A DNA stretch of 64,000 bases from Diphasiastrum complanatum. Taxonomy: Eukaryota > Streptophyta > Lycopodiopsida > Lycopodiales > Lycopodiaceae. Shown in pieces: positions 4,861 through 63,000 of this stretch. Made by a program: the position numbers and the translations under genes. The DNA lies in assembly GCA_029204225.1 (NCBI GenBank), contig CM055100.1, positions 31,754,915-31,818,914 on the forward strand, written 5' to 3'. A model generated the notes under the pieces. It made no database searches. It saw nothing but the letters and a program-made list of their open reading frames with translations, and was not told the origin of the DNA. Within the stretch, counting starts at the first letter, position 1, and each line of letters opens with the position of its first letter.

Positions 4861-4861
4861 T

Positions 4862-8017: not shown

Positions 8018-8021
<4 letters not shown>
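6191..8021. other. Unassigned intergenic stretch
   Basis: No supportable gene. Contains an A-run near 7080. The last part forms the upstream region of the peroxidase gene. Confidence 0.4.

Positions 8022-8073
<52 letters not shown>
8022..8073 (+). repeat. (CT)n microsatellite in peroxidase upstream region
   Basis: An uninterrupted CT run of about 52 bp, ending some 60 bp upstream of the TATA box of the peroxidase gene. CT-rich tracts close to transcription starts are common in plant promoters, so a regulatory role is possible but not shown. Confidence 0.9.
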
Positions 8074-8078
<5 letters not shown>

Positions 8079-8132
8079 ATTTGCTAACGTTTTGATTCTA
8101 GTCTCATTGAAAGTGTCTTTCCAACCAATGTG

Positions 8133-8140
8133 TATATATA
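8133..8140 (+). promoter_or_regulatory. Probable TATA box of the peroxidase gene
   Basis: TATATATA lies 56 bp upstream of the chosen start ATG at 8196. A start site about 30 bp downstream (near 8165) leaves ATG 8196 as the first AUG and excludes the in-frame ATG at 8157. Confidence 0.55.
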
Positions 8141-8195
8141 TAGGGAGAACGTGCTTATGTATGACTACTTGTTCTTCAACTATCAACGCACAAAC

Positions 8196-8448
8196 ATGGA
8201 CGGGACGTGTAGATTGAGAGAAATTCTGAGTGTGGTGTTTATTTTGGTTTTGTCACTGGTGATCGTTAAGTCGGAGAGCACAAGCAGCAGCAGCAGTAAA
8301 TATAGTAATTTGTTGTCAGTTGATTTCTACAACACAACATGTCCTAATGTGGAGTCGATTGTGCTAGCTACGATGCTGCAGAAATTCAACGAAACACCCA
8401 CAGTTGCTGCTGGAGTACTTCGTATCATGCAGCACGACTGCTTTGTTG

Positions 8449-8516
<68 letters not shown>

Positions 8517-10325
8517 AGAAATACTCAATTTTTTCCCAGAATTAACATATGGGTTTCCATGATCTTTATGAGTTTTTGTGGTCAATTATCTAGTGAACGC
8601 AAGAACGCAGAAATAGTTTTAGAGCACAGTTTCCGGAGACTCAATTTTTTCCCAGAATTAACATATGGGTTTCCATGATCTTTATGAGTTTTTGTGGTCA
8701 ATTATCTAGTGAACGCAAGAACGCAGAAATAGTTTTAGAGCACAGTTTCCGGAGACTTAGAGACTATTTTGGTCTCTTTAAAAATCAGGAGCTCAATTTT
8801 GCTTTTCTTACAAGCTATCATCGACTGATACATTAGAATGGCCCCACGTTAGTCACGAGTATACTTCATCTACTTTTTGTTTAAATTTGTAGAATTCTAG
8901 ATTCTGAAGACGTCTAAGAGCTATACATTCAAGCATATTGCCGTAGACAATCACAGGCTCACAATCGCCAGTATTGTAATGAAAAGCAGACCATCGGAGT
9001 TCACAGTATATGACTGAAACAGCAAAATTTCAACTTTTGATTACAAGGATGGTTTTCTATTTTGTATATCCTTGAGATTTGTACATGTCTAGTGTTCTTG
9101 TTCTGATCTTCAGATTTCAAGTGTTCGTACAGGGATGCGATGCTTCAATTCTACTTGTCTCTACTCCAAACAATACAGCAGAAAAGGATGCGGAAATAAA
9201 CCTTTCATTATCTGGAAATGGATTTGATGCAGTGATCCGGGCAAAATCTGCTGTGGAGGCTCAATGTCCAGGAGTGGTATCCTGCGCTGACATTATAGTT
9301 ATTTCTGCAAGAGACCTTGTTAGCCTTGTAAGTATCCTCAGCCGCCTTTTCATTCAATAGACGATCATCCATATTTAGCTACCTTTCATATTTGTTAAAT
9401 GAAAACAGACTGCTTAGCCAATGAACGTGCTCGGTTGAAGACGTGATCAACACCCTCGGGCCTCAACGAAAGATAGGATCTCTCCTCTCTTTTAGAAGCC
9501 TAACTTTCAAGTTCAAGATGTTAGAAGGTAACGCACATATCAAAAACATTCCTTTGATGTTGCTTGTATGTTGCAGGTTGGAGGTCCATTTTTTCCAGTG
9601 CTGAAAGGACGCAGAGACGGAACCGTATCTCAAGCATCACGAATAGCTGGCAACATTCCTACCCCAGATATGAGCCTCGATGAGATCATTCAAATTTTTT
9701 CTTACAAAGGGCTTGGCATCAGAGATCTTGTGACATTATTAGGTATTCACACACTACTGCTCAGTTACAGTTTTTTCCATTGACCATAATTCCCAGACAC
9801 ATGTGTACATATTAGACGTCGTCTCGACTCTCAACATTGACTGTTTTTCTGCATGTTCAGAATCAAAATCTGTAAAACAATTATCAACAGCTTGCTGGCT
9901 TTTCATTTGCAGGTGCGCATACAATAGGATTTGCTCACTGTACATCGTTTATCAACAGGCTATACAACTTCAGCAGTACATCTCAGGTTGATCCTTCTTT
10001 GGATCCTCAATTTGCTCACGCCCTCCAGCAGACTTGCCCACCAGTGAACTTTGATCCTACTGCTGTCACGTTTAATGATCCTACAACACCCTTCACATTT
10101 GATAATGTTTACTACAAGAATGCTCAGAGGGGTCTGTCTGTGATGTCATCTGACCAAGTGTTGTTCTTAAATCCAAGAACTCGGGGTATTGTCAATCACT
10201 TTGCCAGCAATGAAGAGACCTTCTTTTCTGCTTTTGTCACTGCCATCCAACATATGGGCAGCATGGGCGTGAAGACTGGAATGCAGGGAGAAATCCGGAG
10301 AGATTGTGCTTTCGTCAACAGTTAA
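8196..10325 (+). CDS. Class III (secretory) plant peroxidase
   Basis: Heme peroxidase of the secretory plant class, using H2O2 to oxidise phenolics in the wall or vacuole. Four exons: 8196-8450, 9133-9327, 9577-9742 and 9913-10325, all with GT/AG borders, the classic three-intron layout of this family; 342 residues predicted. Residues 1-26 form a signal peptide. All eight disulfide cysteines are present (49, 82, 87, 130, 136, 215, 247, 337), as are distal Arg76 and His80, proximal His208 in Gly-Ala-His-Thr, and the Asp/Ser calcium ligands around residues 81-90. Several Asn-x-Ser/Thr sites are visible. Oddities: the distal block reads Arg-Ile-Met-Gln-His instead of the usual Arg-Leu-His/Phe-Phe-His, so the highly conserved Phe before the distal His is Gln. 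Intron 1 starts directly with a CT microsatellite. The start codon is chosen by the TATA spacing and signal peptide. The family is certain; the exact paralogue is not. Confidence 0.93.
8452..8513 (+). repeat. (CT)n microsatellite abutting the intron 1 donor
   Basis: About 62 bp of pure CT starting one base after the G of the donor GT at 8451-8452, so the donor reads GTCTCT. If the intron were retained, translation would add a Ser-Leu repeat. Confidence 0.92.
8523..8755 (+). repeat. 116-bp tandem duplication in peroxidase intron 1
   Basis: Two head-to-tail copies, 8523-8638 and 8639-8754, are identical by eye over their length. Such identity in an intron points to a recent duplication. Confidence 0.92.
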
Positions 10326-11600: not shown

Positions 11601-12351
11601 CATATATGAACATATTAAAGTTTCATTAGTACCCCCACATGTTTGACACATCGTATCTTACATGTATATAAGTTGCCAAAATGAAGGTCTCAAAATTTTT
11701 AATCGGTATATGTATATATGAAGAACACACATGTGAAAGTATCGCAAAGTGACGATTATTGATAGTTGCACAATGACGATCATTAATCATGCAATGACGC
11801 TTAAAAAACGATGTTTATTAAGAAAAATTAATGTCGCTATAATTGTCATGGGGCAACATTTAAATTTTGTCAAAAGAAATGTCACAAACTTCTGTTGCTA
11901 TCCACTCTTTTTCTGGTAATAATGTACAATGACATTTTTAATTTTTAGATTTTTTGATAAGGAGATTGAAAAATAGTTGTTTTGGATTTTGAGAAACTAA
12001 CAAAAAATATTTACAATAATGCATGGAGAATTTCAAATATATAACATTGTACGAAAGTTTGTGCTAGTTGTTTGGAGTTTGGGGTAATATCCGTGAGTTG
12101 AAAAAAAAGCCATGAAATATTTTAGTGTTTGGACCATGGCCCAATATATAGAAGCTCAGTCATAGGTGCATGTGTCTAACAAGAAATTGAACAATACACA
12201 TCAATATAAGCAAAAACATATAGTGTCTAAAATTTGTAGTTCTTGCAGTTGAGGTCCTCTTAATCAAACACATAGAATTAGTTCTTATCGTAGGAAGCAA
12301 ACAGAACAGAACATCAAACAATCTCATTATCTGAACACATAGCTCATTCAA
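11601..12351. other. Unassigned AT-rich stretch
   Basis: Nothing coding recognised between the tandem repeat and the truncated 3' end of the copia element. Confidence 0.4.
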
Positions 12352-14959
12352 AATTGAAGGAAGTTATGCTAACATCTGCGTTGTACTTGACTTTGAAAAT
12401 CTATTTGCAATCATCTACGTTTCTACTAGCAGGTAATTCGACAATCATCCATGTCTGGTTCTTGATAAGAGATGAATACTCTTTATCCATAGCTTCTTTC
12501 CAGAGATCTGAATTAGGCTGACTAAGTGCCTCTTGGACAGACGTCGGTTCCTGAACAAGATAAGCTGCAAACTCTTCGATATACCGGTTAGGTGGTCTAC
12601 TGGTTCTTGAAGATCTTTTGGGTAATACATAAAGTTGATTATTTCCATCATACTGTAGTTGCTGATTTGCAACATCATCATCTTCTGATTCGACTTTGAT
12701 TTGTTGTTCGTCAAGAGTAGAGGAGCTAGGACCTTCAATAGGAATAGTCAACTGAGGAACTGGAAAGTTCAAGGCATCAAGAGAATCTGATAGGTCGGCT
12801 ACATGGAAACCTCCCTTTCCTTTGAGGTTTTGAAACTGATCTTCAATGAAGATGACATCCCAGCTAGTGAATATCTTCGACTCGATGGGACCGAACAACT
12901 TGTAGGCTTGATCTGAAGTGGTGTAGCTGATGAAAACACACTTGACGCTCTGGAAGTCGAGCTTCTTCTTGAGATCACGAGGAATTTGCGCAAAAGCAGT
13001 ACATCCAAAAACTCATGAGTTTGATAAAGAAGGTCTAGTACATGTCCAAACTTCGAATGGCATTTTGTTTGAGAGGCCTTTAGTGGAACATTTGTTCTAA
13101 ATATAGGTTGTTGTTGAAACAGCTTAAGCCCAGAAGCACTTTGGAAGTGTCGCATGTGATAACATGCACTTTTCCGACTCAACTAAGGTTCTGTTCTTTC
13201 TCTCAACAAGACCATTTGACTAAGGTGAATAGGAAGTGATGTATTGTTTCTCAATGTCATTGTTAAGGCAATAGTCCTTGAATTTGTTGGAGATGTACTC
13301 TCCTCCGTTTTCTGACCTCAATGCTTTGATTCGTTTGTCAATTTGATTCTCAGCATGCTCTTTGAATTGTCTGAATTTGATGAAAGCATCTAATTTTTGT
13401 TTAATGAAATAAACAACTGTTCTTAGAAAATTCGTCAATAAAGGTAATGAAGTACTTTGCAACTAACAATGAAGGAATTTGCATAGGTCCACATATATCT
13501 GTATGAACAATATCAAACAGACCTTTTGTTGCATGCATATGGTTTGATCTAAACGGAATCCTAGCCTGCTTTCCAAAGATGCAACTATGACAAACAAGGA
13601 GATCGACCTTACTAGAAGGATAGTTGAGATCAAGAACCATGGATTGTCTGGACATGTTCAAAATAGATGCATGATTCACGTGTCCTAAGCAATGAATAAT
13701 AATGCTTTATTGACTAGAATAGAGGTCTTCAATACTTGACTAGACTCAGAATAGCAATGTGCCAATCTATATAAGTAACTCTGCCTCTTGCTGAGTGCAA
13801 GGATCTTATCACTCCTATCTATAATTCTGCATTGATCAGATTCAAATTCTACCTTATGGCCTAAATCTGTAATTCTACTTACTAATAACAGATTTGTAGA
13901 GAGTTTAGGCACATATAAGACCTTTGATAGTAGTTTGAATTGATCATGCTGGAACCGCAATCTTACAATACCTTCAACTTCAATAGTGTGAGTACTATTT
14001 TCACTGATATGAACAAATTTCTTTGTGTTGTAAGGTGTGTAGGAGTTGAAGATCTCACGTTAATTGGTCATATGTTGAGTTGCTCCAGAATTCAGAAACC
14101 ATGAATCATCCAAAAATGTGTTGTAATCTTTGACCATGAATGTGCCTTCGTCCACTTCGACTTGGGGAGATGATGAGATTGTGTTTGCTTGTTGATCAGG
14201 TTGCTTGGATGCGTTCTTTGCTTGGAGAATTCGGCAATCCTTGATCTCATGGTTATTGCGCTTGCAATACATCTTCTTCTTCGATTGTGGATCTGATGAT
14301 TGTGCTTGACTTTGAGTCTGTTTCTGATTCGTTGTAGCCTTCTTGGAGCTTTTCTGCTTCTGTTGCTTTGAGCCTTTGTTGACAAATAGAGCCTGAGAGG
14401 AGGAAGTAGACGAAGTGTCTTGACTTCTTCGATTATCTTCTTGCAGCAATATAGTGATAACTCTAGTAAGACTTAAATCTGAGTGTGTCGATATGATCAT
14501 CACCCAGTTCTCATATGTAGAAGGCAAGCTTGAAAGCAATGTCATAATTGTGTCTTGATCGTCTATGACTGATCCGACAATAGCCATCTATTGCAATAGA
14601 TTCTTAAATTGGTTAATGTGAGTTTGAAGTGAATTACCAACAAACATTTTGAATGTGAAGAATTTCCTTCGTAGATGTAACTTAGTAGTTACGTCCCTCA
14701 CGTCATATAGTGAGTTCAAAATGTCTCAAACATCTTTTGACATTTTAGCTTCAGCTATGTGTCCAATCTGTGTATCTGATATATTATCGTCCTTTGATTT
14801 CCACTTTGAGTCGTCGTCTTCAGGTTTTACATCTGTACCTGTAACAACATCCCATAATTCGCTGGTGATTAGCAAGGCCTTCATCTTAAATTTCCACAAA
14901 TAATAATTAGATCCATTCAGCTTGTTTGTGATATGATCGGCTTTACTTTGAAAATCCAT
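12352..14959 (-). pseudogene. Ty1/copia gag-pol, truncated within reverse transcriptase (family A, copy 1)
   Basis: Read on the - strand from ATG 14,959: gag N-terminus; gag core (14,587 down to about 14,300); a damaged zinc knuckle (Tyr-Cys-Lys-x3-His-x4-Cys, first Cys missing because of a 9-base loss relative to copy 2); protease motif with Asn-Ser-Gly-Ala-Thr replacing Asp-Ser-Gly; pre-integrase block; integrase start with the His-Thr-Asp-Ile-Cys-Gly-Pro motif; Gly-Gly-Glu-Tyr block; integrase C-terminal region; then the first residues of RT (Trp-Lys-Glu-Ala-Met). The sequence stops near 12,352, so almost all RT and RNase H are gone. Several frameshifts. Close to the copy at 46.2-47.9 kb. 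Confidence 0.88.
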
Positions 14960-15133
14960 CTGGAACTTAGTTTGTCAACCGTATTGATGACGCTGAGATG
15001 TGGTAATGCCAACAATAGGAAATCAATTCTCTGACATTGAATGGTCGAAAAGGACTGAAGAGTATGATATCAATTTGATATCGCAAAAGATATCAAGTGT
15101 TAGAGCTTTCACTCTGATAAAGTAGCAAACCTA

Positions 15134-15145
15134 GCTCTGATACCA
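15134..15145 (-). promoter_or_regulatory. Copia primer-binding site
   Basis: Reads TGGTATCAGAGC on the - strand, the standard plant copia primer-binding site for initiator tRNA-Met, immediately inside the LTR end at 15,146. Confidence 0.9.
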
Positions 15146-15685
15146 TGTCGGAAAGTGGTGTGTAAAAGATAGGTCTAGTTCGAAAAGAAACAAATGAAAG
15201 TAATTCGTGTGTCTAGAAAGAAAACTTTTCATGCATGGCGGAATAAACTATCTTCATCTTTCCAATGCATAACTATGCCTATCAATTTCAAACAAGATAA
15301 TACTGATAGAAATCATGTTTGAACTTATAGTAATTAACTTTGAAATCGCCAGTACTACAGTGATTACGTAGCCAAACAATTTAAGCATCGAAAATTATCA
15401 AACAAATAATTAGTCGCAATTGTTCGCGAAGAAATACAGAAACGCATACATTCTGAGTCGAAAGTTAAACGCAACGAAGGATAGTATTGATTTAGTATGA
15501 AAACGTAACTGAAGCAAATGAGTACAATAAGTTGCGGATCGAAGCCACGTACTCTATGCTATTTATGAACGGCTAAAATGAAAGTCTGAATTAAGCACAA
15601 TGTTGATAATCGGTAGCGTAATAGCAATCTATAAAACAACTCTAAGAAGTGAGCTAGAATGCTCAAGAGTGTTCAAGCTCGCAGG

Positions 15686-15721
<36 letters not shown>

Positions 15722-16480
15722 AACTATTCAAATGCTTCTGATAATTCTGAGCTCTGTAGAAATGAACTAAAGCAGCCACATGCGACACTGTCGGGTTTTT
15801 TGCAAAAAAGACGAGAAAACCGAAGGTGCCCTTAAATCTCATTTAGGGTTGTCCCACACTTTTCCGTAGTCATTTCCTTAACATTTGAGGCTCTTTGGAA
15901 AAAGCAAAAAAATGTGACACTGTGACTTTACACGAGATTTCTATCAGACGAAAAATGCGACACTATCGTAAACTCCATGTAATTTTGTAGACTGTGTAAA
16001 AACACTTGTAATTCTGCAAACCGTGTAAACACACGGGAAAATTTGCAGAACTAGATTAAACAATGGATAAAGATTAAAATCGATTAGTCGATTGGTAGAA
16101 GGAGAATAATCCAACAAAAGAGATATCTTCCATAAGAATGAATGAGAGAAGAATGACAGAGATTAATTTCTCCCACACTTGTATGTCTATTTATAGCATC
16201 CTCTTGACCTAGTTGGATCATCTTGCCTAAGCTTATCAACTTATGGAAGTTTCTAGGTACTTGCCAAAAACTTAGACTAACTTGACTAGATTTAATGTAT
16301 CTCTACTAACCAATTAGAGTAGGTCTAAATTTGACCTTATCAACATTTCCAATTGTTAAAATAGTAAGGAAACTATTTCTGCTCCTTATTGACATAAAGA
16401 AATGTATCTCTAAGTTGAAAATTCACTTTGGCCTCCAAATTGCCAAATTAGACAACTTAAGTAGTGGACAATTTTTCACA
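15146..16480 (-). repeat. Copia family A LTR
   Basis: The inner end is TGTCGG (+ strand) at 15,146, next to the primer-binding site. The outer end is placed at TTTTTCACA, 16,480, giving TG..CA ends and about 1.3 kb; the outer boundary is an inference. On the - strand a TATA box (CTATAAATAG) sits at about 16,186-16,196. A (GA)n run at 15,689-15,719 lies inside the LTR. Confidence 0.65.
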
Positions 16481-16613
16481 TGGATCACTTTAGACTAGTC
16501 TTGCGGCATCTGCATGGCTAAATTTTCCATGCAATCACACAAAAAAAATTTCTTTCACAAAATAGAAATGTAAGATTATAAGAAGCTACATCTTGTACTT
16601 TTTCTTTATATCG

Positions 16614-16622
16614 TTAAGTACC

Positions 16623-16714
<92 letters not shown>

Positions 16715-18139
16715 ATTTCATGACTACAAAATGAGCGTCATTCTTTGTGAATACTTTCCTATTGTCCTCGGCCATCAACACATTTTGAAGGTCTTGAAGT
16801 GTAGGCAATTTTTCCATTATGGCATAACTTTGGACAAGGTTAGCAAAATCACTACTTAAGCCATTCAAGACAACTTGCACAAGCTTATGCAAGCTCTTTG
16901 TTCAAATCCTTTACTCTCAAAACAAATTGATGTCCACTCTCATTCTTTCCTTGGAAGCATTGAAGAACTTGATTTTGAGAGAAACCAATCTTGAGATGTT
17001 CTTGGACTCATAGATCTTTTGAAGAGTATCTGAAGCCTCTTGGGCTGAGGTACAAGCTCCAACTTCCTTGAGCAAATCATTTGCAACATTCATCTTAGTA
17101 AAATGGAGTGCAATCTTGCATCTCTTCTTGTATTTAGTTGTCTATTGTTGATGGATTGGCTCATCTTCATCTCCATTCACTGTATCCATCAAATCTTGAT
17201 AAAAAGGATGGATTTCATTCTTAACTTCCAAATTGAATATTTGGAAGAGTTCAATCTATGAGTAGAATCCAAAAAATAAGCACTCATAGATGCCATCTTC
17301 TACAATAAGGAGATAGGTTCAATAAAACAAAATAGATTGTACAAGATTTGATTAAAACCAACTATCTCACTCTCTTATGGACCTGAGAAGAATCACACTT
17401 TGGTTCATCAATAATATCTATGATGATCTTGAGCTCGATCAATCTTCTAGATCCCAACTATATCCAAATTCAGCTCAAATTACTCATAAATTTGATCAAA
17501 ACTAGTCTCTTCCTTTATTCAGATTTTAGAAGAAGGATGAATCAACCTATAGTGAACCAAAAGAACTTTAGAGAACAAAAATGCCTTACAAATAAAGCTC
17601 TCTAAATTTGGGTTTAATCACTTTGACATAATCAATCTCAAATCTATCAAAATCTGAGCCTATTAGGAATGTAATTTTTTGACTAGTTTTGCATTTTAAA
17701 ATAAAAATCATCAAAAGCCTTGTAATGAAAAAGGTGTCTTATAGGACATCAAGAAGACTAATAATGACCTATTAAAGTTCTCAAAATGCTGATTCACTTT
17801 CCTAAAGAGTGGTCAGATTCAATTCCTTAGAAAATCTTTACTAGGAGACTTGTACTCCAAGATGAAAAATCACCGAGACTTTCTAATTTGGTTTAGTTAA
17901 ATGAAAATGACTCTATATTAGTTTCTAAATGAAAGTGACTCAATATTAGATTCTGAAGCTATTATTTAGAAAATAAGGTCTCCTTTGATATATTTTCATC
18001 CGAATGGAACCAAAAATTTAGAAGTACTATCCTTAGATTGGCAACTCGTAGCAAGGGCATACCAATACTACTCAAAATCTAGGATTGAAGCTTGAAAAAA
18101 TCAAATCTAAAACTCACTTTTGATTAAGATCTAATACCA
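16614..18139 (-). mobile_element. Second copia fragment: gag, leader and primer-binding site
   Basis: From ATG 17,296 on the - strand a gag N-terminus is readable (Asn-Ser-x-Lys-Tyr-Ser-x-Trp-Lys-Leu-Arg-Met) but soon hits a stop. A later block (16,892-16,740) gives the gag core with Leu-Asn-Gly-Leu-x3-Phe-x-x-Leu and Leu-x-Ala-Glu-Asp-Asn-Arg. The coding sequence runs into a (GA)n microsatellite at 16,626-16,711, where the element is cut off. A primer-binding-like site with one mismatch is at 18,128-18,139 and a probable LTR starts at 18,140 (TGTATATAC). Confidence 0.7.
16626..16711 (+). repeat. (GA)n microsatellite
   Basis: About 86 bp of uninterrupted GA. It forms the 3' edge of the gag remnant and encodes Ser-Leu on the - strand. 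Confidence 0.92.
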
Positions 18140-19581
18140 TGTATATACATCTCCATCTCGGATTTAAGGTTTAGGGTTACCCTTCAACTTTTCTTGACCT
18201 AAACCAAAATTCAATACCCTAAAATTTTCCATCAACCCTAGCATTGACCTCGAGATCTTGAGATCCACCAACAAGGCAAAACATGCAAAAAATAGTCCTA
18301 CATTCTCTCTACAACGCTAATGTACATTTTGTACTCATTAGAAAAGATGCCAATAGACCTAATGTGAGGAATTCACATGATTAGGCATAGGTCTAAGCAT
18401 CTAGACACTTGTCATGTGCCACATCATCACTTACAAGTGGAATTACAATGAACTAGTCAAGCTACAATTGTGAAATTTCAACACAATGTCTTTGTCAAAT
18501 AACGAAACCTATACTCCATTTTCACAAAAAATTAAAAATTCATGTATATGTATTGAGCACATATAGTCCTTTAAATGTTGTAGCTTGAGTAACCATCTTA
18601 TCTATATTAAATGTAAATATTGGATTCATAATAGAACTGACCCAAGTTAGGTCTCAGATGTAGACAAATGCTAGATAAAAGTAGCTACAGTAAATAATGC
18701 TACTGATATGAAATAACTATGATAAACACATCTATTAGCATAGAGATGTGACAAAGGTAACCTTATTGAATGTGCACCAAGATCGTTGAAATGATGCATC
18801 ATTTTTGTGTTAAACAAACACTATCTAGACACCCCAATTCATCTCATAAATTCATGTGAAAACAAGCTGAAAAGTATTAAGAAACTATAGTGGAAATAAG
18901 CATATACTATGATTGGTTTATCTCGCTGATAGGGTGGCAAATTAGAAATGGGAAAATCAATAGCAATCAATCATTGCTCAAACAGCTCTTAGATTCACAT
19001 TGTATTGAAAGCATGAGAAAAATGTGTCGTAAATTCCTAAAGTGAGATTGCAAACTGTCAATTACCATAGCTCCCTCAGTTAAATGGAAAACTCAATCCA
19101 AAATGAGGACTAAATCTCTGGTGGCACTTCTACTATGTGATTGCATCTAAAATGTTTGTACATTCAACCAATGAATAAAAGTTGCAATTAAGCTTACCAA
19201 AAGTGTTTTCCATAACTTTATAAATTTAAAGGTAGTAGGTGGGTGCTAAAGTTAGTGAGGCACTTGCTCACAGTGGTCAATTGTAGGTAGGTTTGTGGAG
19301 AAACCTATTGTGAGTTTTAGTTAGCTATTTTATGCTTTCCCATTATAATAGGTTGAAAGAGAAACTTGTTGAGGAAGCAACAAAGAAAATTGAAGAGAGA
19401 ACAATTAATCCTATCCATAGGATAGGGTGAATCAATCTCCATCATTGAATATGTAACCTACATAATAAGCAGACCATTTAGAGACATTTGAAAGGTGCTT
19501 TAGAAAAGAAGGTAATAAAAAGATATAATTATAGTACCTTCTGTTTTAGGACTTCAATATTATGTAAATGTTGTGACCTGG
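18140..19581. other. Possible decayed copia LTR, then unassigned
   Basis: The first few hundred bases follow a primer-binding-like site and may be LTR, but no second copy in the window sets its limits. The rest shows no gene. Confidence 0.35.
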
Positions 19582-20061
19582 TGTAAAGACCACTCGGGAA
19601 AACCCCTAAGATGAGGACAGGAGAATACAATTGGAGACATGTAGGAGCAAAACCTCCCAACCAAACCTAGAGCAATTCTAGATCTAGTCCCCCCAGCCAT
19701 GTCATGTGAATTCTAGAGGAGAAGAGAGCAACTGGTAACCTGAACCCAAGTTGTAGACGAGAGAATCCCTACCCCAATATATAGAGAGTAGATTCATGTG
19801 CATGAACACGTGCAATCCCCATGTAGTCCAACTATAAATAGTTCACAGCTCTTCATGCAGTCCTCTTGCCTATATCTGTCACACATACATGCACTACTCC
19901 ATATGTCTCAATTAGAGTGTCTGGGTCCTCTCAAGGTCATTAGTCACAAGCAGGCCTTGACATGAAATTAAATCTTGGCATGACCAATAATCTTGAACAC
20001 CGAAGGGCCGGTCTACCATATTAGGACTATTCCATGTCCTTAGTTGAATATGGTCGCAACA
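19582..20061 (-). repeat. Gypsy LTR (family G1)
   Basis: About 480 bp, with TG (19,582) to CA (20,061) ends. Near-copy of 34,493-34,979 and homologous to 704-943. The polypurine tract lies on the high-coordinate side, so this is a 3' LTR of a - strand element. Confidence 0.85.
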
Positions 20062-20240
20062 CTCTTCCTTCTCTAAATAGGTTTTGTCCTCAAAACATAA
20101 AAGAGAAGACATGAAATTATTCCTTAAGCTTTCAAGTCTTATCTAGGAATCATTATTTTTAGTCTGATCTTTCCATCTGAATAAGTACTCAGAGATGCAA
20201 CAATTCTTCAATTGTTTGCCTAACTCAATAGCATTAGGGG
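20062..20240 (-). pseudogene. Gypsy integrase C-terminal/chromo-like tail and polypurine tract
   Basis: On the - strand the residues preceding the tract read Tyr-Leu-x-Arg-Trp-Lys-Asp-Gln-Thr-Lys-Asn-Asn-Asp-Ser then Arg-Leu-Glu-Ser-Leu, like the chromo-type tail of gypsy integrases (Leu-Val-x-Trp-Lys-Gly). One stop replaces the expected Trp. The same tail is next to the LTR at 34,979. Confidence 0.7.
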
Positions 20241-21468
20241 ATATTAGAACTCAAAATGGGCCCTTTGTCAGGATGCTTTTTTTTTACTTCGCACGCTTTC
20301 AACGCTTAAGTGGCCCAATCCAGGGTGTCCATCTGTGACGAACTATAACAGTGGTTGATAGACGGAAATTTGCTTTTGCCTTTCCCAGCCAAATTTTGGT
20401 GATTTTCAAAAATCTCGTTGGGTAGGAGAAACGATTGTGATTGGACCACAAATATTGCCCGAATACTCTTTTGCTGCCCGTATTTGTACACTCGAGGTTG
20501 ATTTGACGTATATAGTTATAAATTGTAGTTAATTGATCCTTGTAGTTTAGGAACTTCTTGTCATTCTTAGGTATACCTCTCATTCTCTTTGTTCTCATTC
20601 ATACTCAACTTCCATAGAGATATTTTGGACTAATGGCGACATGCATTCGGAGACCAAGAGGAACCATTGATGCGGGCCAGAGCAGTTTGTTTGGTGCGGG
20701 CCATGCGATGTCTTAGTATCGGATCAGCGCGCATGTGTACGGATCAACAGTGAGGCAGTATAAGAGGCACGTGCCGAACCGATAACCCGAGTATGAAGTC
20801 GATAGCTAATCAATGCGCAGGTGAGTATAGGCCATTGTTCGTTGTGTTAATTATTGGATCGAATCCGAGTCTTCATACTTTTCCCATGCTAATCTTTGTT
20901 TTTTGGACGATCACACACTTTGAAATTTTTGTAGATTAGAAGCGGTTGCCTCCACACCAAAGGGAGAATCTAGAATATTCCCTCTAAAAATTAGAATATT
21001 TCATTTTGGTTTCATTTAGTACCAGAGGCCATTCGCAAACCCAGCATCAAATCAGCGCCCGCGTAGAAAGTTAGCAGCCACATAATGTAGGCCAGGCACG
21101 TCGAACCGATATCAGACAAAAAAGTCGAAAACTAGGCGATATCGGAGGGGTGCATGGAAGTCTGAAACAGGAATATCATGATTGGATCGAGCGCACTAAA
21201 CCGATATTGTCAGTTGTAAAAAAAAAATCGATAACTTTTGAAAGACAGCTCGGATTGAGACGATTACAACGCCATTAGAAAGCCCTCGACGAGAGCTTTT
21301 CAACGGCAGCCAACATGACCTAGTTCCGAGCTACAGTTAAAGAGATATTCTTAGTCAAAGTTTTGGGCGGTTAAATAGTCAACGGTCAACCTAATATCGG
21401 ATCGACGTGGTTGACGAGTTTGACCCGGTCAAACCCTAAGGACACACGCCGATCTGATATTCAAATTT

Positions 21469-21508
<40 letters not shown>

Positions 21509-21583
21509 GAAAGAGCTCAACGAGAGCTTCGCAATGGCACCAGAATGACCTAATTTCGAATTACGGTGCAAAAGTTATAGGCA
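20241..21583. other. Non-coding stretch rich in CCGATAT/ATATCGG motifs
   Basis: No gene recognised. From about 20,690 the sequence turns more GC-rich and repeats short motifs such as CCGATAT and its complement (near 20,772, 21,105, 21,140, 21,203, 21,395). A pair of about 70-bp direct repeats lies at 21,279-21,345 and 21,510-21,580. A poly-T run occupies about 21,469-21,507. Confidence 0.6.
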
Positions 21584-21599
21584 GTGACGTGTGAGATGA

Positions 21600-21804
21600 C
21601 ACCTGCACGCGTGTGAAATGACACCTGAACACGTGTCGTGTGTTCATTCGATTGCTCATAAACACGTGTTGCTCTCGCATTCGATCGTACAAATCCCACA
21701 CGTGTAATGTGACAGGGTGACATGTGTCGCTCGCTCATTTGTCCGTACAACTCCCACACGTGTGACAGGACGTTCTTTCGCACGTGCGAACCCCGATATA
21801 AAAT
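21600..21804 (+). promoter_or_regulatory. CACGTG (G-box) array plus TATA box, copy 1
   Basis: Five CACGTG palindromes and several ACGTGT variants occur within about 200 bp, followed by TATAAAAT at 21,797-21,804, some 306 bp upstream of the ATG at 22,110. The same arrangement is kept in copy 2. G-boxes bind plant bZIP and bHLH factors. Regulation is inferred only from the motifs. Confidence 0.6.
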
Positions 21805-22109
21805 CACAAATTTCGATGAATTTTTTTCACTTTTTTTTTCGCTCCGCATATCGCATTTGTGCGCACCCTTCACAATCAAAATTCCTCCTACTGCCTTCCA
21901 TGCGCACAGGTCCGATACGTCTGCCTACGTGTCACCCCATATCGCACTTGTGTGTCTTTCCTCAAATCTAATCGTTCTCTCTGATATTTGGCTCGCATAG
22001 GTCCGATATACCGTACATTCTGTCCGTACATAGCGGTCCTCTGCGAGTTCTTTATCATCCCTTCCTTCTCATCCTAACCTTCATGCACAAGTCCGCTATC
22101 ACATAGTTC

Positions 22110-23810
22110 ATGCCCATAAATAGGAGAAAGCAGACAAGGAGAGACTTCTTTTCTCCTGGCTCATCCTCATCTCCTGCAGTTGCCATCACACCACCTGCTA
22201 GACCTAGAATGCGCAACCGTAGCAGGTGGCTCTCTGAGATACGCAAGTATCAGAGGTCAACAGCTCTGTTGATCCCAAGAGCTCCATTCTACCATGCTGT
22301 CTGAGACATAACAAAAAATGATCTCGAACAGCACGTTAGATTCACACCGGGAGCTCTTCAGTGCCTTCAGGAGGCTGCTGAAGACTATATTAGCCTTTTT
22401 TTTTAGGATTCTTTTTTCCTTGCCATCCATACCAAGAGGGTTACCATAATGCCCAAGGATTTTCAGCTTATGATGAGAATGAGGGATAGGTACTATAGGT
22501 TAAATGTATCTCAGCCTGCTGCTCCTAGACCAACTCCTGTAGATAGGACTCATCTTTCTACGAAGTGTCCTAGGAAGCAGACAGCCCCCAAGCGTGCTCC
22601 TAAGAAAGTGAAGCCTATCCCAGAATCCATTGTAGATAATGTTGTTGTTGCTAATGCTGTAAATATAGCTACCTCTGTTTTGAATACTCCTATAATTGTT
22701 GTAGATACTACACATCCACCTCCTCCTCCTCCTCCCAATTTCTACACATATATAGATTCGAATGATTATCTTAAATTTGAGAAAGACATATCGAATGCTA
22801 TAGATACAATTGGTACTCCTTTTTGTTTTAGACTAGAATAACTTGATTTTAGTATTAATTTTAGAGTTCTAGATTGCCTGGATCTCAAAGACAGACGGGC
22901 TTCTATCAGTGATCCTGTGATAGAGTCCGGGCTGACACTCTTGCAATTTGACATTGCAAGAGATTCATCAAACGAGTTGCTGGTGCTGAGTAACTTTCTG
23001 CTCCAAGCCTTCAAGGAGAATAATGACACATTGTCACAGTGTCTGACAAGTGGATTCACACCAGCAACAAAGTATCTGGTCATTCCTTATCATACCAAGT
23101 AAGATATATTAAGTGCTTCTTCATGTTTTATGCATTAACATTGACATTTTCAATTTAAATAGTTCTCAGAATTGCCGCTAAAGTACTTTCAATCTTATTT
23201 TGCAGTGACCACTGGAGTTTAAATCTGATCTCTATTAAGAGATCTGTAAATAATATTATTAAATGTTCTTGTGTCAAGATGAATTCGGCAAGAAATGCGC
23301 ATAAGGATGTAGATATATTCATTCCATATCTAAGTAAATATATTCCTACAAACGTTCCCCATTCCGTGGACTGGCAGATCGTCAGCTTGGAGGTAAACTC
23401 TGTCTTTCTTAATAGCATTTTGAAATCAGTATTCTAATGAAATATTTTCAATCTAATTCATTTTGTTTCATAATTGATTTCTTGTGTGCTGAATTATTTT
23501 GCAGTCACCCCAGCAAAATGATTCATTCAGCTGTGGGTGGTACACATTGTACAATGCCAAGTTGTTTTTTGAGTGGTTCATCCTTCAACAAGATGTTGAT
23601 ATTTCTAAGGTAATAAATTCTATTTATTCCTATTTTGGAATCATGATTAGTTTTCTATTCTGGTGATGTTATTGGCCATTACTAATATATGAATATTCTA
23701 TTTTGCAGTTTACACTTCTTGAGTATACATCAAACCAGGTGTACAGATTTAGACAAGAAATTATCCTGAGTATACTGGCTAGGGCAAGGCCTTCAGCCTC
23801 CCATTATTGA
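22110..23810 (+). pseudogene. CENH3-like histone H3 frame fused in phase to ULP1-like (C48) protease, copy 1
   Basis: Exons 22,110-23,098, 23,206-23,392, 23,505-23,609 and 23,709-23,810 (GT/AG) give a 460-codon frame with three nonsense codons: TGA 22,302, TAG 22,404, TAA 22,839; no frameshift. Codons 1-40: Arg/Ser/Pro-rich tail. About 41-128: an H3 fold with Glu-Ile-Arg-Lys-Tyr-Gln, Leu-Ile-Pro, Leu-Gln-Glu-Ala-Ala-Glu-Asp-Tyr and Ile-Met-Pro-Lys-Asp-Phe-Gln; loop 1 is one residue longer than in canonical H3, as in CENH3. Next a Pro-rich linker, then a ULP1-type SUMO-protease region with His332 (Asp-His-Trp-Ser-Leu), Pro-Gln-Gln and nucleophile-like Cys402 (Ser-Phe-Ser-Cys-Gly-Trp). The usual catalytic Asp position appears to be Lys. 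The TGA replaces the Arg codon CGA seen in copy 2. The protease exons look well kept. Could be transposon cargo. Confidence 0.72.
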
Positions 23811-24042
23811 TGATGGTGCAAAGGATGATGTAGTTGTACTAAATTAAGATCAGAAAAAATATAGATAGCATAGAACAAAAATACATGTATAGACTTCATA
23901 GAAAAATATACAATGATATATCAAATGCTGCTCCAGTTTATGAATTTGGGAGCACAAAATACATGTACAGATGCCCAACTTGGGCTTTCATTTATTGAAT
24001 GAAAGGGTGTATACACATTTTTTTACTAAAGTTTATTTGAAA

Positions 24043-25026
24043 CTATTGTTCTCCCACAATGGTGATTGTTGTAGGTAGATCTTTGCAGCACGTTATCAGC
24101 TCTTGTCTTTTTCGCATCTGTGACATGGCAAATATTAGTGAATGTGCAATTGTAAATGATGACATTTTCTATTATTTTGTTTTATTTTGAAATGGCAATA
24201 AACGTAAAGTACTTACGAGTCTTCCGTTGATGATACATCTGAAATATGTTGGTAGATTGGTTTGTAATAGCATGAGCTCTATTCTGATAAAATCAAGCTT
24301 CCAGTGCTCTTCCACCTCAACCATAGTCAAATATTCCTCATTGTAGATAATGCTTATCTCCATTCGGTTTGTGTGACCATTTAGTTCAAAGTCTTGATCC
24401 AGTGGTAGCCATGTACCTTCAATTTTCTTGTATCTCTGGTAGTTAAATGTGAGACTGAGCATTTGCTTTTCGATATAATAACGAAAGATCATTGAGGACT
24501 TTTTAATCTTGCATTCTATGTCATTATTTGGTTTACTATCCCAGCCTTGATCCATGAGATCTGACAAAGTCTCATCTAATAAATCCTTGCAAACAAATAA
24601 AGTTGGTGTCCTACGAACACTAGCACTCGAGAAAAAATCAACAAATGTATGCAATGAGATAAACCAACTTAGGTGAACAATTTTCAAGCATGTGCTTATC
24701 TTCATAGCATTTTTAATATCAATGAGTAGCTTGCATCTCAAGGATTCAGAAACAATGCTGTCAGGAGTAGGCCACTCATCACTTTGAAAACTAGGCAATG
24801 GAATTGCTTCGAGCTTGCCAAAACTTCCATCTGTTTGTGGCGTATATAAAGATTCATAAAAATAACTACCACAATCTTCAAGTTCCTTTGGACTTCTTCC
24901 TCTGTATTGTAGCTTTCCAACATCAGAGTGAATCACGTCTAATATTCCTGCAAGTGATTGTGCGGGCTCCCATTCATTTATGCATGATGGATATACATTT
25001 GAAAGAAAAAAACAATGTTGAAGCAT
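24043..25026 (-). CDS. Unrecognised spliced gene, about 294 codons
   Basis: Exon 25,026-24,217 (270 codons) ends at a perfect donor (CTC then GTAAGT) and joins in phase to 24,117-24,043 (acceptor GTCACAG), which adds 24 residues and a TAG. The frame is open throughout, which is unusual here. The protein is mixed hydrophobic and acidic, with no signal peptide, no clear membrane segment and no motif I can name. An in-frame TAA lies just before the ATG, so 25,026 is the first possible start unless an upstream exon exists; a short Met-Ala-Arg-Arg-Pro-Arg frame near 25,425 is one candidate. It is tail-to-tail with the histone-protease unit, stops about 230 bp apart. Copy 2 of that unit is not followed by it. 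Confidence 0.55.
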
Positions 25027-26668
25027 TTAAATCATAATCTGAAGAGCATCAATAAAGGAAATCACCTATGATTGCTACATAGTGCATATGTTTTGATATA
25101 CTTACAATTACATTTTTTATGATCATGAGGATTGATATCATGTACTTTGATTTCTGAATGCATATATACATGTTGCACTAAGACTTATGATATCGATTGA
25201 CCTCCCGAGGTAGTCTTAAACTCCAAAATTTTTGCTTTCCAATAAGATTTGTAAGTCATTTTTGCTCTTTTCTTTTGTCAAAAATCGCCCTTTGATGATG
25301 GATGCAGCAATACCCATGAGTTCTTCGTATATTTTGTTGGCTTCTAGTTATCAGCTTCTTCTTTCTCATTGTAAAGAATCACAGAATCGATTGTAGATCT
25401 GGGTCTCCTCGCCATTGCTATTTTCAAAGCTTGGGCGCCAAAAATCTCTCTGATATGTTACTTAATTTTAATTTTTTGTATCACATTTAATCTAATGTGA
25501 ATGCCAACATAGTCACAGTTACTACGTATACCATATTTTATGTAACTGTACATACTATATTTCTATAACTATAACTAGTATAGTTAGAAAATTTCATTAT
25601 ACTAACCAGCATAGTAAAGTAAATTTAACTTGAGATATTGACATCGGGCAGATTAGCACGTGTCGAGCAGGAAGAAGAAACCAATGGGATACGTCCATGC
25701 TGTCCGGACACAAATTTCAAAGTTTTCTATATTGCATTTTTTATTTTTTAGTTAATTTGAAGACTTGTTCTGCTAGTTTCTGATTTTGATCAGATCCTCT
25801 CTGTGCTTGTGGCATCATGATTGTCACATTGTCTAAGATATAGTTCTTGAAGGTTTCTGGCATCTCATGGACTGACGTTCAACAGGACTCCTCCTTCAGC
25901 ATATTGATCTTAGCGCAACTTGTAATCTTTGTATTTTCAGTCATCTGAGTGGATGATGACGCTGCATCTGGTTCCATTTGGATTGACTTCAAGGAGTTTA
26001 ATACTTTCTTTTTTTCTTTTTTATCAACATAGTTGCATATCTCCTTGCTATCTTTCTTAGTAACTAGATGGATATTCGCTTCACAATTACGAATATCAAT
26101 ATCCACCATAGTTAGGATCACCTAGGTGTAGCGTTGCTTCAATTGATGTTTCTTGTTGATGGGTGCCTTGGGTGGTTCTACCTTGGAAACCTTAGCCATT
26201 GGTGCTTTTTGCAATGGTTGAGCTGGTATTTTTGCATTTCGTACCGATCAAGATCCATGTGTTGTAGGACTTGTTCATCTGTCAGCTCAACTTCTTCATC
26301 ATATGAAAAGACATGTTGTCAAGGTACTAGGTCATTTTCAACTTGCTCTAGTATCAACTCTATTGCTAGCCATGCCACGTTGATCATGTTTACCTCGAAA
26401 GTTATTGGCGTGTCTAGGGTGTAACCTTTTTGGTGATGATGTGCTAGGTTCCATATCCAAGTCTAGATGACATGCTTGCCCAGCCATGCAATCAACTGTC
26501 GCTAATGCATCCCATCCATTGCACAATATCTAGTTAAGATTCATAATGATCTCCCCTGGCTTGCCTTGGGCGATCAATTGTGTGATTAGTGGTGGATGAT
26601 CTGTTATCAGCATTGGGTGTAATCGGTTTCACCGCCCATGTGGTTGGATCCACCTTTACAGCCTGCTC
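25027..26668. other. Unassigned, with possible gypsy remnants at the right
   Basis: 25,440-25,760 is very AT-rich and non-coding. From about 25,880 the - strand carries short Lys/Ser-rich frames that could be decayed gypsy polyprotein beyond the protease domain, but no domain is readable. Confidence 0.35.
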
Positions 26669-59637: not shown

Positions 59638-60703
59638 TTCATGCTTTGAAGAGGTGAGGGTGTATACATCAGATCATCAGTGTTTTTGCTTGCAAGAACT
59701 TGGATTTTGGAGGATTCAAACTCGCTGAGAAACAAGCAATCTGTGGATCATAAGTGGATCAAATCAAGGCTGATCTGATCCAGCGGAGCTCTGTACGGAC
59801 AGAGAGCTCACACATGTGAAATCAGCCCTCATTAATGAGTGCTACTTCTCAAGGAATGATCCAAATTTGATGTTCTATAGCTTGTTGGATAGGTATTGGA
59901 GAGTAGAATGTGTTGCTCTTGTTTCTAAATCAATTTGATTTGTTTCTAGAAGATTTTTACGCAATCAGAGAGTTTGAGAGGGTACTCAACTCGTGGGATA
60001 TGCCAAAGTGAGCACACATCTGTCTTTTCACCATTTTCATCAATTTTCACTGTCAATCAAGTAGAATTGGATAGAAGTGAGTGTTCTGAGGTCTTAGACT
60101 TTTCATTTCACACATATTACTGAACATTCTATCTAGTCTTTGTCTGAAACCGAAAAGGAATGAACAAGATCAGTATAATGCATGTACTGGAGTGAATCTA
60201 TAGAGAAAACAGGCTTACTAAGTATATCTCTGAATCTAACATAATGTTCATAAAATACGTCAGAATTTGGTTGTGTAGTCCTGAAAACATGTAGATATGG
60301 CCTGAATAGACTGTGGAAGTAGTCTAGATTTTTAGTAATCCCAAATTCACTAAGAAATGAACTCAAGCCTGAATCTCATGAGGATCCTAAGGAAGAGGCC
60401 ATGGAAATAACATAGATATCGCACTTGTGCACGAGGAAGAACTAAAACAAAACTAACTATCAAGATCGCGCACAAAAGAAATTTGTACGACAGGTAGATA
60501 CCGAATATCGCACTTGTGCGCAAGTAGGTAGTGTTGGAGGCAAATGGACAACAATGCGCGTGCACAAGAGCGATATGCCGCGAATTTTGAGAACGGAAAA
60601 AGTAGAAAAATAATAGGGTTTCTGTGCCATTTATACTAATTTTTTGCACGTGTGGTCAATGGTCAAAGGACACGTGTCTACTTTCAATTGGACTACAAGA
60701 ACT
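59638..60703. other. Copia leader remnant, then ATATCGCACTTGTGC motif stretch
   Basis: No gene. Between 60,415 and 60,580 the motif ATATCGCACTTGTGCGC occurs twice forward and once inverted. It recurs within the leader of the histone-protease unit. Confidence 0.5.
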
Positions 60704-60924
60704 GGCACGTGTGAGGTGACACCTGGACACGTGTGAAATGACACATGTACACGTGTCTCGTGTTCATTCGTTTTCTCAACAACATGTGTCGCTCTCGCAT
60801 TCACTCGTACAAATCCCACACATGTAAAGTGACAGGGTGACACATGTCGCTCTTGCATTTGACCGTACAAGTCCCACACGTGTGACAGGACGTTCTTTCA
60901 CACGTGAGAACCGCGATATAAAAT
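60655..60924 (+). promoter_or_regulatory. CACGTG (G-box) array plus TATA box, copy 2
   Basis: Seven CACGTG palindromes by eye, followed by TATAAAAT at 60,917-60,924, about 310 bp upstream of the ATG at 61,234. Collinear with 21,600-21,804. Confidence 0.6.
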
Positions 60925-63000
60925 CACAAACTTCGATGAAGTTTTTTCACTTTTTTTTCGCTCCGCATATTGCACTTGTGCATATCCTTCACAATCGATA
61001 TTCTTCCTAACGCCTTCCATGGCATAGGTCCGATACATCTGCCTACATGTCTCCTCGTATCGCACTTGTGCACCTTTCTTCTATACTAATCTATCTCTCT
61101 TGTATTCAGCTCGCACAGATCCGATATACCGTACATTTTGTCCATACATATCGGTCTTCTGCAAGGGCTTTATCATCTTTCCCTGCTCATCCTAGTCGTC
61201 ACGCACAAGTCTGCTATCCCATAGTACACGTCCATGGATAGGAGAAAGCAGACAAGGAGGGACTTCTTCTCTGCTGGCTCGTCCTCAACTCCTACGGTTG
61301 CCATTACACCTCCCGCTAGACCTAGAACGCGCAACCGCAGCAGGTGGCTCTCTGAGATACGTAAGTACAAAGATCAACCGCTCTGTTGATTCCAAGAGCT
61401 CAATTCTATCGTGCTGTCCGAAACATAACTAGAAATGGTCTTGGACAGCTGGTTAGATTCACACCTAGTGCTCTTCAATCCCTTAAGGAGGCTGCTGAAC
61501 ATCACATGAGTCTTTTTTTTTAAGATTCATTTTTGTTGGCAATCCATTCCAAGAGAATCACCATAATGCCCAAGGATTTTCAGCTCCTGATGAGAATGAG
61601 GGAGAGGTTTTGTGAATTGCAAGTATCTCAGCCTGCTGCTCCCAGACCAACTCCTCTAGATAGGACTGATCTTCCTACCAAGCATCCTAGGAAGCAAGCA
61701 GCACCCAAGAGAGCTCCGAAGAAAGTAAGGAGGGTAGACACCACATAATCTGTGAAGCCTAACCCGGAATCAATTGTAGATAACATTGTTATTGATACTG
61801 TTGTAAATATAGCTACATCTATTTTGGATGCCCCCTCAATTCCTATAGATACTACACATCCACCTCCTCCTCCTCCCTCAAATCTTTATACATATATAGA
61901 TTCCGATGACTATCTTAAATTTGAGGACATATCCAATGCTATAGATACAATTGGTACTCCTTTTTGTTTTAGACTAGATGGACTTGATCTTAGTATAAAT
62001 TATAGAGTTCTTGATTGTTTGGATCTCAAAGACAGACGGGCTTCTATCAGTATAGAGTCCGGGCTTACACTCTTGCAATATGACATTGCAAGAGATTCAT
62101 CCAATGAGTTGTTGGTGCTGAGTAACTTTTTGCTTCAGGCCTTCAAGGAGAATAATGACACATTGTCACAGTGTCTGACTAGTGGATTCACACCAACAAC
62201 AAAGTATCTGCTCATCCCTTATCATACCAAGTAGGATATATTAAATGTTTCTTGCTGTTTTATGCATTAACATTGGCATTGTCAATGGAAATAGTTTTCA
62301 AAATTGTAGCTAAAGAAATTTCAATCTTATTTTACAGTGATCACTGGAGTTTAAACGTGATCTCTATTAAGAAATCTGTAGATAATAGTATTAAAGGTTT
62401 CTGTGTCAAGATGAATTCGACGAGCAATATGCATAAGGATGTAGGTATATACCTTCCATATTTAAGTAAATATATTCCTACAGATGTTCCGCATTCTGGA
62501 AACTGGCAAATCGTTAGTTTGGAGGTAAATTCTATCTTTCTTAATAGCATTTTGAAATTAGTATTCTAATGTATTTGTTTCATTCTAATTCATTCTGTTT
62601 CATAATTGATTTCTTGTGTGCTGAATTTTTTTGCAGTCACCCCAGCAAAATGATTCATTCAGCTGTGGGTGGTACACATTATACAATGCCAAGTTATTTT
62701 TTGAGTGGTTCAACCTTCAGGAAGATGTTGGTATTTCTAAGGTAATAAATTCTGTTTATTCTTATTTTTGGAATCATGATTAGTTTTCTATTTTGTTAAT
62801 GTTTTTAGACATTACTAATACATGAATGTTCTATCTTGCAGTTTACACTTCCTGAGTACACATCAAGCCAGGTGTACAGATTTAGACAAGAAATTATCCT
62901 GAGTATATTGGCTAGGGCAAGGCTTTAGCCTCCCGTTATTGATGATGGTGCAAAGGATGATGTAGTTATACTAAATTAAAATCAGAACATATAAAGATAG
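60704..63000 (+). repeat. Large direct repeat, copy 2 (partner 21,584-23,868)
   Basis: Same order and orientation as copy 1, 39 kb away. Flanking sequences on both sides differ between copies. No convincing target-site duplication or terminal inverted repeat seen. Confidence 0.92.
61234..62928 (+). pseudogene. CENH3-like histone H3 frame with ULP1-like protease, copy 2
   Basis: Same architecture as copy 1, with ATG at 61,234 (Met-Asp-Arg-Arg-Lys). Damage: a one-base loss near 61,371-61,376 within the first H3 helix region; TAA at 61,521 at the same codon as the TAG of copy 1; a 27-base insertion 61,725-61,751 relative to copy 1, with an in-frame TAA at 61,746. The Arg codon lost to TGA in copy 1 is intact here. 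From 61,752 the linker and protease are open: exon 1 to 62,230, then 62,338-62,524, 62,637-62,741 and 62,842-62,928, GT/AG throughout. The protease keeps Asp-His-Trp-Ser-Leu, Pro-Gln-Gln and Ser-Phe-Ser-Cys-Gly-Trp. The C-terminus is five residues shorter than copy 1. The protease part alone may still be expressed from an internal start. Confidence 0.72.

Follow-up and report, generated by a model that had tools for sequence, protein, structure and literature searches.

The genome of Diphasiastrum complanatum (Lycopodiaceae) harbors a DNA transposon that, with near certainty, encodes a histone H3 fused to a Ulp1-like protease of the C48 family. Besides 35-bp terminal inverted repeats (TIRs) and frames of transposase-like and accessory type, the element has a gene of four exons, whose ~470-residue product consists of a basic tail, an H3 fold, a basic and Pro-rich linker, and a C48 domain. 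No target-site duplication was seen at its insertions. A broken copy lies in the window (the whole stretch of 64,000 nucleotides analyzed here), unbroken copies exist elsewhere in the genome, a second lineage has the same architecture, and both domains bear the signature of purifying selection. Ulp1, SET, and TET enzymes are already known from transposons; what sets this element apart from those is the fusion of histone H3 to C48.

A histone-protease gene in the window

Within the window, an H3 fold and a Ulp1/C48 protease domain are encoded in frame at 22116-23810, over four exons whose three introns are all GT-AG (Table 1). The plus-strand frame from 22107 runs through a basic tail, the H3 fold, a basic and Pro-rich linker, and the N-terminal part of the C48 domain, to a splice donor after 23098. 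A previous sequence-only reading had described one frame, without frameshift, from the tail to a four-exon protease. The frame, the H3 fold, the linker, and the four exons stand, but exon 4 is frameshifted near its end. The same reading held that this copy is unable to make the full fusion, and we agree: there are three in-frame stops (TGA 22302-22304, TAG 22404-22406, and TAA 22839-22841). In addition, where most other copies have a Met codon, the window copy has Ile, though two codons before it, at 22110, there is an ATG in the same frame. What the window contains here is a transposon-borne H3-C48 gene in broken form.

Both halves belong to their respective families. With X at the first two stops, the window copy matches Pfam Histone (PF00125) with E=8.1e-26 and 91.1 bits (cut-off 26.4), while the spliced part past the third stop matches Peptidase_C48 (PF02902) with E=2.1e-11 and 44.5 bits (cut-off 20.7). 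Thus, the proposal that one frame combines genuine H3 and C48 folds is borne out, and neither half is scored as non-homologous by profile search. Many copies in the genome have H3, linker, and C48 in this same order, so the pairing is not due to chance.

Table 1. Positions of the element copies and of the parts of the H3-C48 gene in the window.
Feature	Position	Strand	Basis
Transposon copy 1, internal fragment (c7 positions 4405-8562)	21581..25761	+	blastn, 94.9% over 4181 bp
Exon 1 of H3-C48 gene: basic tail, H3 fold, Pro-rich linker, C48 N-terminal part; three in-frame stops	22116..23098	+	Frame, splice sites, Pfam
H3 histone fold, codons 38-128	22227..22499	+	PF00125 E=8.1e-26 with X at stops; PDB matches
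Linker, basic and rich in Pro (codons 129-210), in frame with H3 and C48	22500..22745	+	Reading frame
Exon 2: C48 part with the catalytic His in DHW and, where Asp is usual, Asn in MNS	23206..23392	+	Frame, splice sites, alignment
Exon 3: C48 part, Gln (PQQN) and Cys (SCGW)	23505..23609	+	Frame, splice sites, alignment
Exon 4: C48 C-terminal part, frameshifted near end	23709..23810	+	Frame, splice sites
284-codon open frame of the element, no known family	24172..25026	-	Open reading frame, Pfam search
Transposon copy 2 (c7 positions 3812-6690, ~85%)	60108..63000	+	Comparison with c7

The transposon, its copies and its lineages

The fullest copy of the element (c7) measures 8,681 bp between its ends. 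It starts with CATTAGAGGAGTTCTCAATATCAAAAAGACCC and ends with the inverse of CATTAGAGGAGTTCTCAATATCAAAAAGACCC, a perfect 35-bp TIR. A second copy with both ends (c22b) measures 7,441 bp, and both ends were also recovered at L065/L066 and at L073/L074, the latter with a duplicate at L075/L076. These three pairs, two of them duplicates of one insertion, are among ten fetched in addition to c7 and c22b; the stretches taken for the other seven yielded no right end. Judged by eye, none of four independent insertions has a target-site duplication of 2 bp or more. The c22b copy sits inside a Copia-type element, and copies of that element without the insertion (L081 and L082) show its exact point, with nothing duplicated. 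An empty site for the c7 insertion was looked for and not found.

Copy 1 in the window is without the left part of the element, where the transposase-like frames lie, and without both TIRs, and no TIR match occurs on either side. The ends of this fragment are common to several copies. The H3-C48 gene of window copy 2 (about 61234-62976) is broken as well. Ten copies, each examined within a stretch of 17-18 kb, have the block around the gene in common, some of them partly, and the fuller ones extend further left.

To the left of the H3-C48 gene lie plus-strand frames containing "LKLDESE", "HLAGDLKTL", "HPCLYC", and "SSQGMEKSH", which we infer to encode a DDE-type transposase. Minus-strand frames flank the gene on both sides, of which the window retains only the one at 24172-25026. 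None of these other frames, transposase-like or minus-strand, passes a Pfam cut-off. A composite of the transposase-like frames has no Pfam match at E<=1, including to Mutator-type transposases, and no PDB match. As they match no Pfam or PDB family, we leave the transposon superfamily unclassified.

Three similar copies on C7 (L011-L013) have open frames of 412-416 aa, and in the two that were read (L012 and L013) a piece of transposase-like frame (YNSSNNLFVDLNYLLRS) runs into the H3-C48 frame. At 5264-5634, the window also contains a non-autonomous element of 371 bp. Its ends resemble the TIR (CCTTAGAGGAGTT...AACTCCTCTAATG), and no target-site duplication is visible around it; copy c11a contains one much like it, of 365 bp (L036:3365-3729). 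At window position 2415 there is a right-type end on its own. Furthermore, a second version of most of window 12135-26476, 99.2-99.5% identical, lies on the same contig at a distance of 10 Mb (C9:21.77M, L031/L032, holding 4248 N), which reflects either a recent large duplication or an assembly effect.

The element is abundant. A search of the D. complanatum genome (1.74 Gb, 5176 contigs) with the H3 part gave 6586 first-look candidates. All 150 that were scored matched, at 81-100% identity, the window copy itself included. Of these, 27 combined a stop-free H3 match with an open frame of 300 aa or more; some of the 27 are probably duplicates on small contigs. The left end gave 1973 first-look candidates, 40 of which were scored. 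What the sequence-only reading missed is that the gene belongs to a high-copy TIR transposon and is no single-copy host or centromere gene.

Unbroken relatives, whose existence the sequence-only reading had posed as its key question, do occur. A stop-free single frame spans the H3 fold, linker, and N-terminal part of C48 in 7 of 30 fetched loci (among which L003/L004 and L021/L022 each seem to be one place counted twice), and the two halves are thus not confined to separate genes. A splice check covered 41 sources, several of them the same place twice. Unbroken spliced coding sequences of 470-479 aa, ending in VVVLN, are present at no fewer than four places: on C11 (L007), C7 (L008), C6 (c6), and C14 (c14). 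For the unbroken spliced protein of c7, the one tested among these, the Pfam scores exceed the cut-off in both domains (Histone, 1e-27, 97.3 bits; C48, 1.1e-10, 42.2 bits). In a census of 26 non-duplicate copies, including both window copies, 21 contained a stop. The five without a stop in the reference frame were L007, L008, L020, L021, and c14. One of them, L020, carries a frameshift, and another, L021, coincides with c6, in which Tyr takes the place of the catalytic Cys. Three unbroken copies thus keep everything that we looked at. A search for relatives in viral contigs returned 13 stretches that fit a pattern, none of which was confirmed.

A search with a distant H3 reached a second lineage (L51), deeply diverged from that of the window copies (lineage A). 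Exon 1 of its best copy, L051, is a single open frame comprising a tail that begins MARTKQT, an H3 fold, a Pro linker, and the N-terminal part of C48. The two lineages have their domains in the same order, with 38% identity over the tail and H3 and 28% over C48 (BLASTP). Three splice points in L51, with GT and AG, fall at places matching those of lineage A, and the motifs HW, MNS, QQ, and SFSCGW are present; exon 3 compares as SSQQVDSFSCGWY in L51 against SPQQNDSFSCGWY in lineage A. Linker length differs between the two. Pfam scores the L51 Histone match at 88.1 bits and the C48 match, on a partial protein, at 20.0 bits, just under the cut-off of 20.7. In L051, the final codon of exon 2 is a stop, whereas in L084 it encodes Gln, and no unbroken L51 gene was therefore seen. 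The L51 query yielded 121 matches in its own genome, from 102 scored of 8879 candidates. Of these matches, 19 have exon-1 residues 1-406 in one frame, and one of the 19, L051 itself, is stop-free.

A third, decayed lineage lies around or beside c12 (L034, about 3112-4711, minus strand), where H3 and C48 pieces adjoin on one strand. These pieces are now in different frames, so that their former fusion is only presumed.

A second multi-copy repeat, found on several contigs (L052-L059), encodes a different H3-like fold (FVRLVKEIVDEFSLGNRVTADAVSAIQES and similar) at all eight loci, with 47-49% identity to the lineage A H3. At five of the eight, a poly-Pro N-terminal part precedes it in the same frame. 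No C48 match better than E=1 was found within the 1.6-2.0 kb fetched per locus.

The pN/pS values, which are uncorrected and come from non-independent pairs, show purifying selection on both domains between distant copies, and less on the linker. Between window copy 2 and four unbroken lineage A copies, pN/pS is 0.22-0.28 for the H3 fold, 0.18-0.29 for C48, and 0.48-0.52 for the linker. Across all pairs of the 26 copies, the means are 0.38 for the H3 fold, 0.50 for C48, 1.00 for the linker, and 0.56 for the tail. Values are noisy among closer copies, with the H3 fold exceeding 1 in 6 of 15 pairs listed. Given the unbroken copies, the same architecture in a second lineage, and the purifying selection on both domains, the fused protein most likely serves the element.

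Identity of the two domains

The transposon histone can safely be placed in the H3 family, judging from its sequence, whereas to call it centromeric would not be safe. The window H3 fold matches 175 distinct PDB sequences at E<=0.001, and the 60 listed are all named H3 or Cnp1. Ordinary H3 leads both PDB searches. Schizosaccharomyces pombe CENP-A (Cnp1) is close behind in one of them, and is not among the 60 matches listed in the second. Three residues of the fold are nearly invariant: H105 (26/26 copies), R108 (26/26), and D115 (25/26), and they remain invariant when L51 is included. We take these (the His, Arg, and Asp of IH-KRVTIMPKD) to be H3-H3' and DNA contact residues. Loop 1, which in CENH3 is longer than in H3, is by eye one residue longer than that of H3 in lineage A and not in L51. 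The fold also contains LLIP and AAEDY, which are CENH3-like residues.

In a phylogenetic tree, the transposon H3s form one group, not firmly supported (83/80), apart from host H3 and from CENH3s. A topology uniting them with three plant CENH3s was not rejected (p-AU 0.277). The "centromeric-type" label given to this histone by the sequence-only reading is therefore not upheld: the tree neither unites it with CENH3 nor rejects that union, and the best-matching structures are ordinary H3.

The host CENH3 gene was not recognized among 150 scored hits, where intron-split genes were probably swamped by element copies. The 13 top hits of the CENH3 query look like host genes for ordinary H3, with 9 of the 13 on C11. 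The one that was read (L060) has Tyr41, Arg53, Ser87, and Leu90, and in these residues it differs from angiosperm H3.1.

Alignment of the C48 half to yeast Ulp1 (E=0.0048) and to a Ulp1-like protease (E=0.0019) brings the His, Gln, and Cys of the active site into register. At the place of the catalytic Asp, a loose alignment puts the Asn of MNS, which L51 shares and which 25 of the 26 copies have, the remaining one being unreadable there. The element protein thus departs from the C48 pattern of a His-Asp-Cys triad plus Gln by having Asn for Asp, and its predicted protease activity may be altered as a result. Papain-type enzymes have Asn as their third residue. The other positions are largely kept, His in 24/26 copies, Gln in 20/26, and Cys in 20/26, and all three are also kept in L51. 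Cys is replaced in five copies, among them c6, one of the four unbroken ones, and is unreadable in one. A structure model of exon 1, built from an alignment of five sequences, has very low confidence (mean pLDDT 36.6) and carries no weight here.

Known systems and possible functions

Chromatin-related proteins occur in several other transposons. KIU (Kaonashi) variants of plant non-TIR Mutator-like elements carry Ulp1 (available part of PMC13317346), and VANDAL elements encode anti-silencing VANC proteins (excerpts of PMC10398659). Like these, the present element is a DNA transposon of a plant, and one of its accessory proteins contains a Ulp1/C48 domain. In contrast to them, its C48 is fused to H3, it has 35-bp TIRs, no target-site duplication was seen, and no Mutator transposase is recognizable; the word "histone" is absent from the available part of PMC13317346. 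Ginger1 also has a Ulp1 domain in a DNA transposon protein, but at the C-terminus of an integrase-like transposase, and "histone" does not occur in the accessible portion of PMC2836005. The oomycete CryptonF and CryptonS elements carry a C48 peptidase, although they are tyrosine recombinase elements, and the passages available from PMC3212892 contain "histone" twice, both times regarding deacetylases. Fungal TET/JBP and oomycete SET transposons carry a chromatin- or DNA-modifying gene as well, but the cargo described in the excerpts of PMC12730594 consists of enzymes, not a core histone. Among the matches listed from the open-access literature, we found neither a histone-carrying transposon nor a histone-protease fusion.

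With H3 and CENH3 themselves, the element protein shares a complete H3 fold and a basic tail, which in L51 starts MARTKQT. It differs in being extended by a linker and a protease, in being encoded by a mobile element, and in branching apart from host H3, albeit without firm support (83/80).

A core histone fused to a protease would be a different way for a transposon to handle host chromatin, and a mobile element may in this manner build its own protein into that chromatin. Why transposons keep Ulp1 is an open question in the field; here, the fusion points to nucleosomes as a possible site of protease action. It also offers a testable handle on the link between SUMO and mobile-element silencing, and a natural design for a histone-tethered enzyme.

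We tentatively propose, with slightly less than even confidence, that the gene encodes a chromatin-tethered deSUMOylating protein that counters silencing at element copies. Its H3 part would pair with H4 and enter nucleosomes, or bind chromatin as an H3 mimic; the C48 part would strip SUMO, or a modifier akin to it, from proteins of silencing or repair close by; and the element would thereby keep its own copies from being silenced, much as VANC proteins act on behalf of VANDAL elements. For an element under host silencing that keeps both domains joined under purifying selection, the simplest reading would be that the H3 domain places the deSUMOylase-like domain in chromatin. A bolder version, possible but doubtful, is that an unclassified DNA transposon superfamily encodes its own nucleosomal H3 with a C-terminal SUMO protease, which would mark and deSUMOylate chromatin through nucleosome entry, such that the transposon carries its own chromatin.

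Several alternatives concern what the two halves do. The C48 half could be catalytically dead or changed, with no role beyond binding SUMO or ubiquitin and so guiding an H3-like anchor. The substitution of Asn for Asp in both lineages and the loss of Cys in five copies point that way, but the retention of His, Gln, and Cys in most copies and in L51, the purifying selection on the C48 region, and the precedent of Asn in papain-type enzymes make it a fairly unlikely explanation. We find it unlikely that the H3 half is instead an integration or segregation tether to particular chromatin, such as centromeres, where the protease would clear SUMO. The CENH3-like residues LLIP and AAEDY are consistent with such a tether, yet CENH3 kinship is not established by the tree, the scored copies are spread over many contigs, and the histone and transposase-like frames are separate. 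Regulation by SUMO of the CENH3 loading factor KNL2, together with a ULP1d interaction, is described for Arabidopsis in the available part of PMC12903445, which makes a centromeric version of the mechanism possible. It is quite improbable that histone and protease are made as separate proteins from one transposon gene, through an internal start, cleavage, or alternative transcripts. A linker that evolves freely and varies in length between lineages would suit this arrangement, but no stop, intron, or frame change separates the halves in the unbroken lineage A copies or in exon 1 of L051.

Two other explanations are disfavored. Plant transposons often carry gene pieces (excerpts of PMC13317346), and with stops in 21 of 26 copies the gene could be a captured host fragment, passively copied and without function, as in Pack-type elements. 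This is very improbable given that unbroken copies exist, that both domains are under purifying selection between distant copies, and that the same fused order is found in a lineage only 28-38% identical. Finally, two real domains in phase could be taken for a host centromere gene coupling CENH3 to a deSUMOylase, present as a pseudogene in the window. The very high copy number, the inverted repeats, the existence of an empty site, and the fact that other copies are surrounded by the same element make this scarcely credible.
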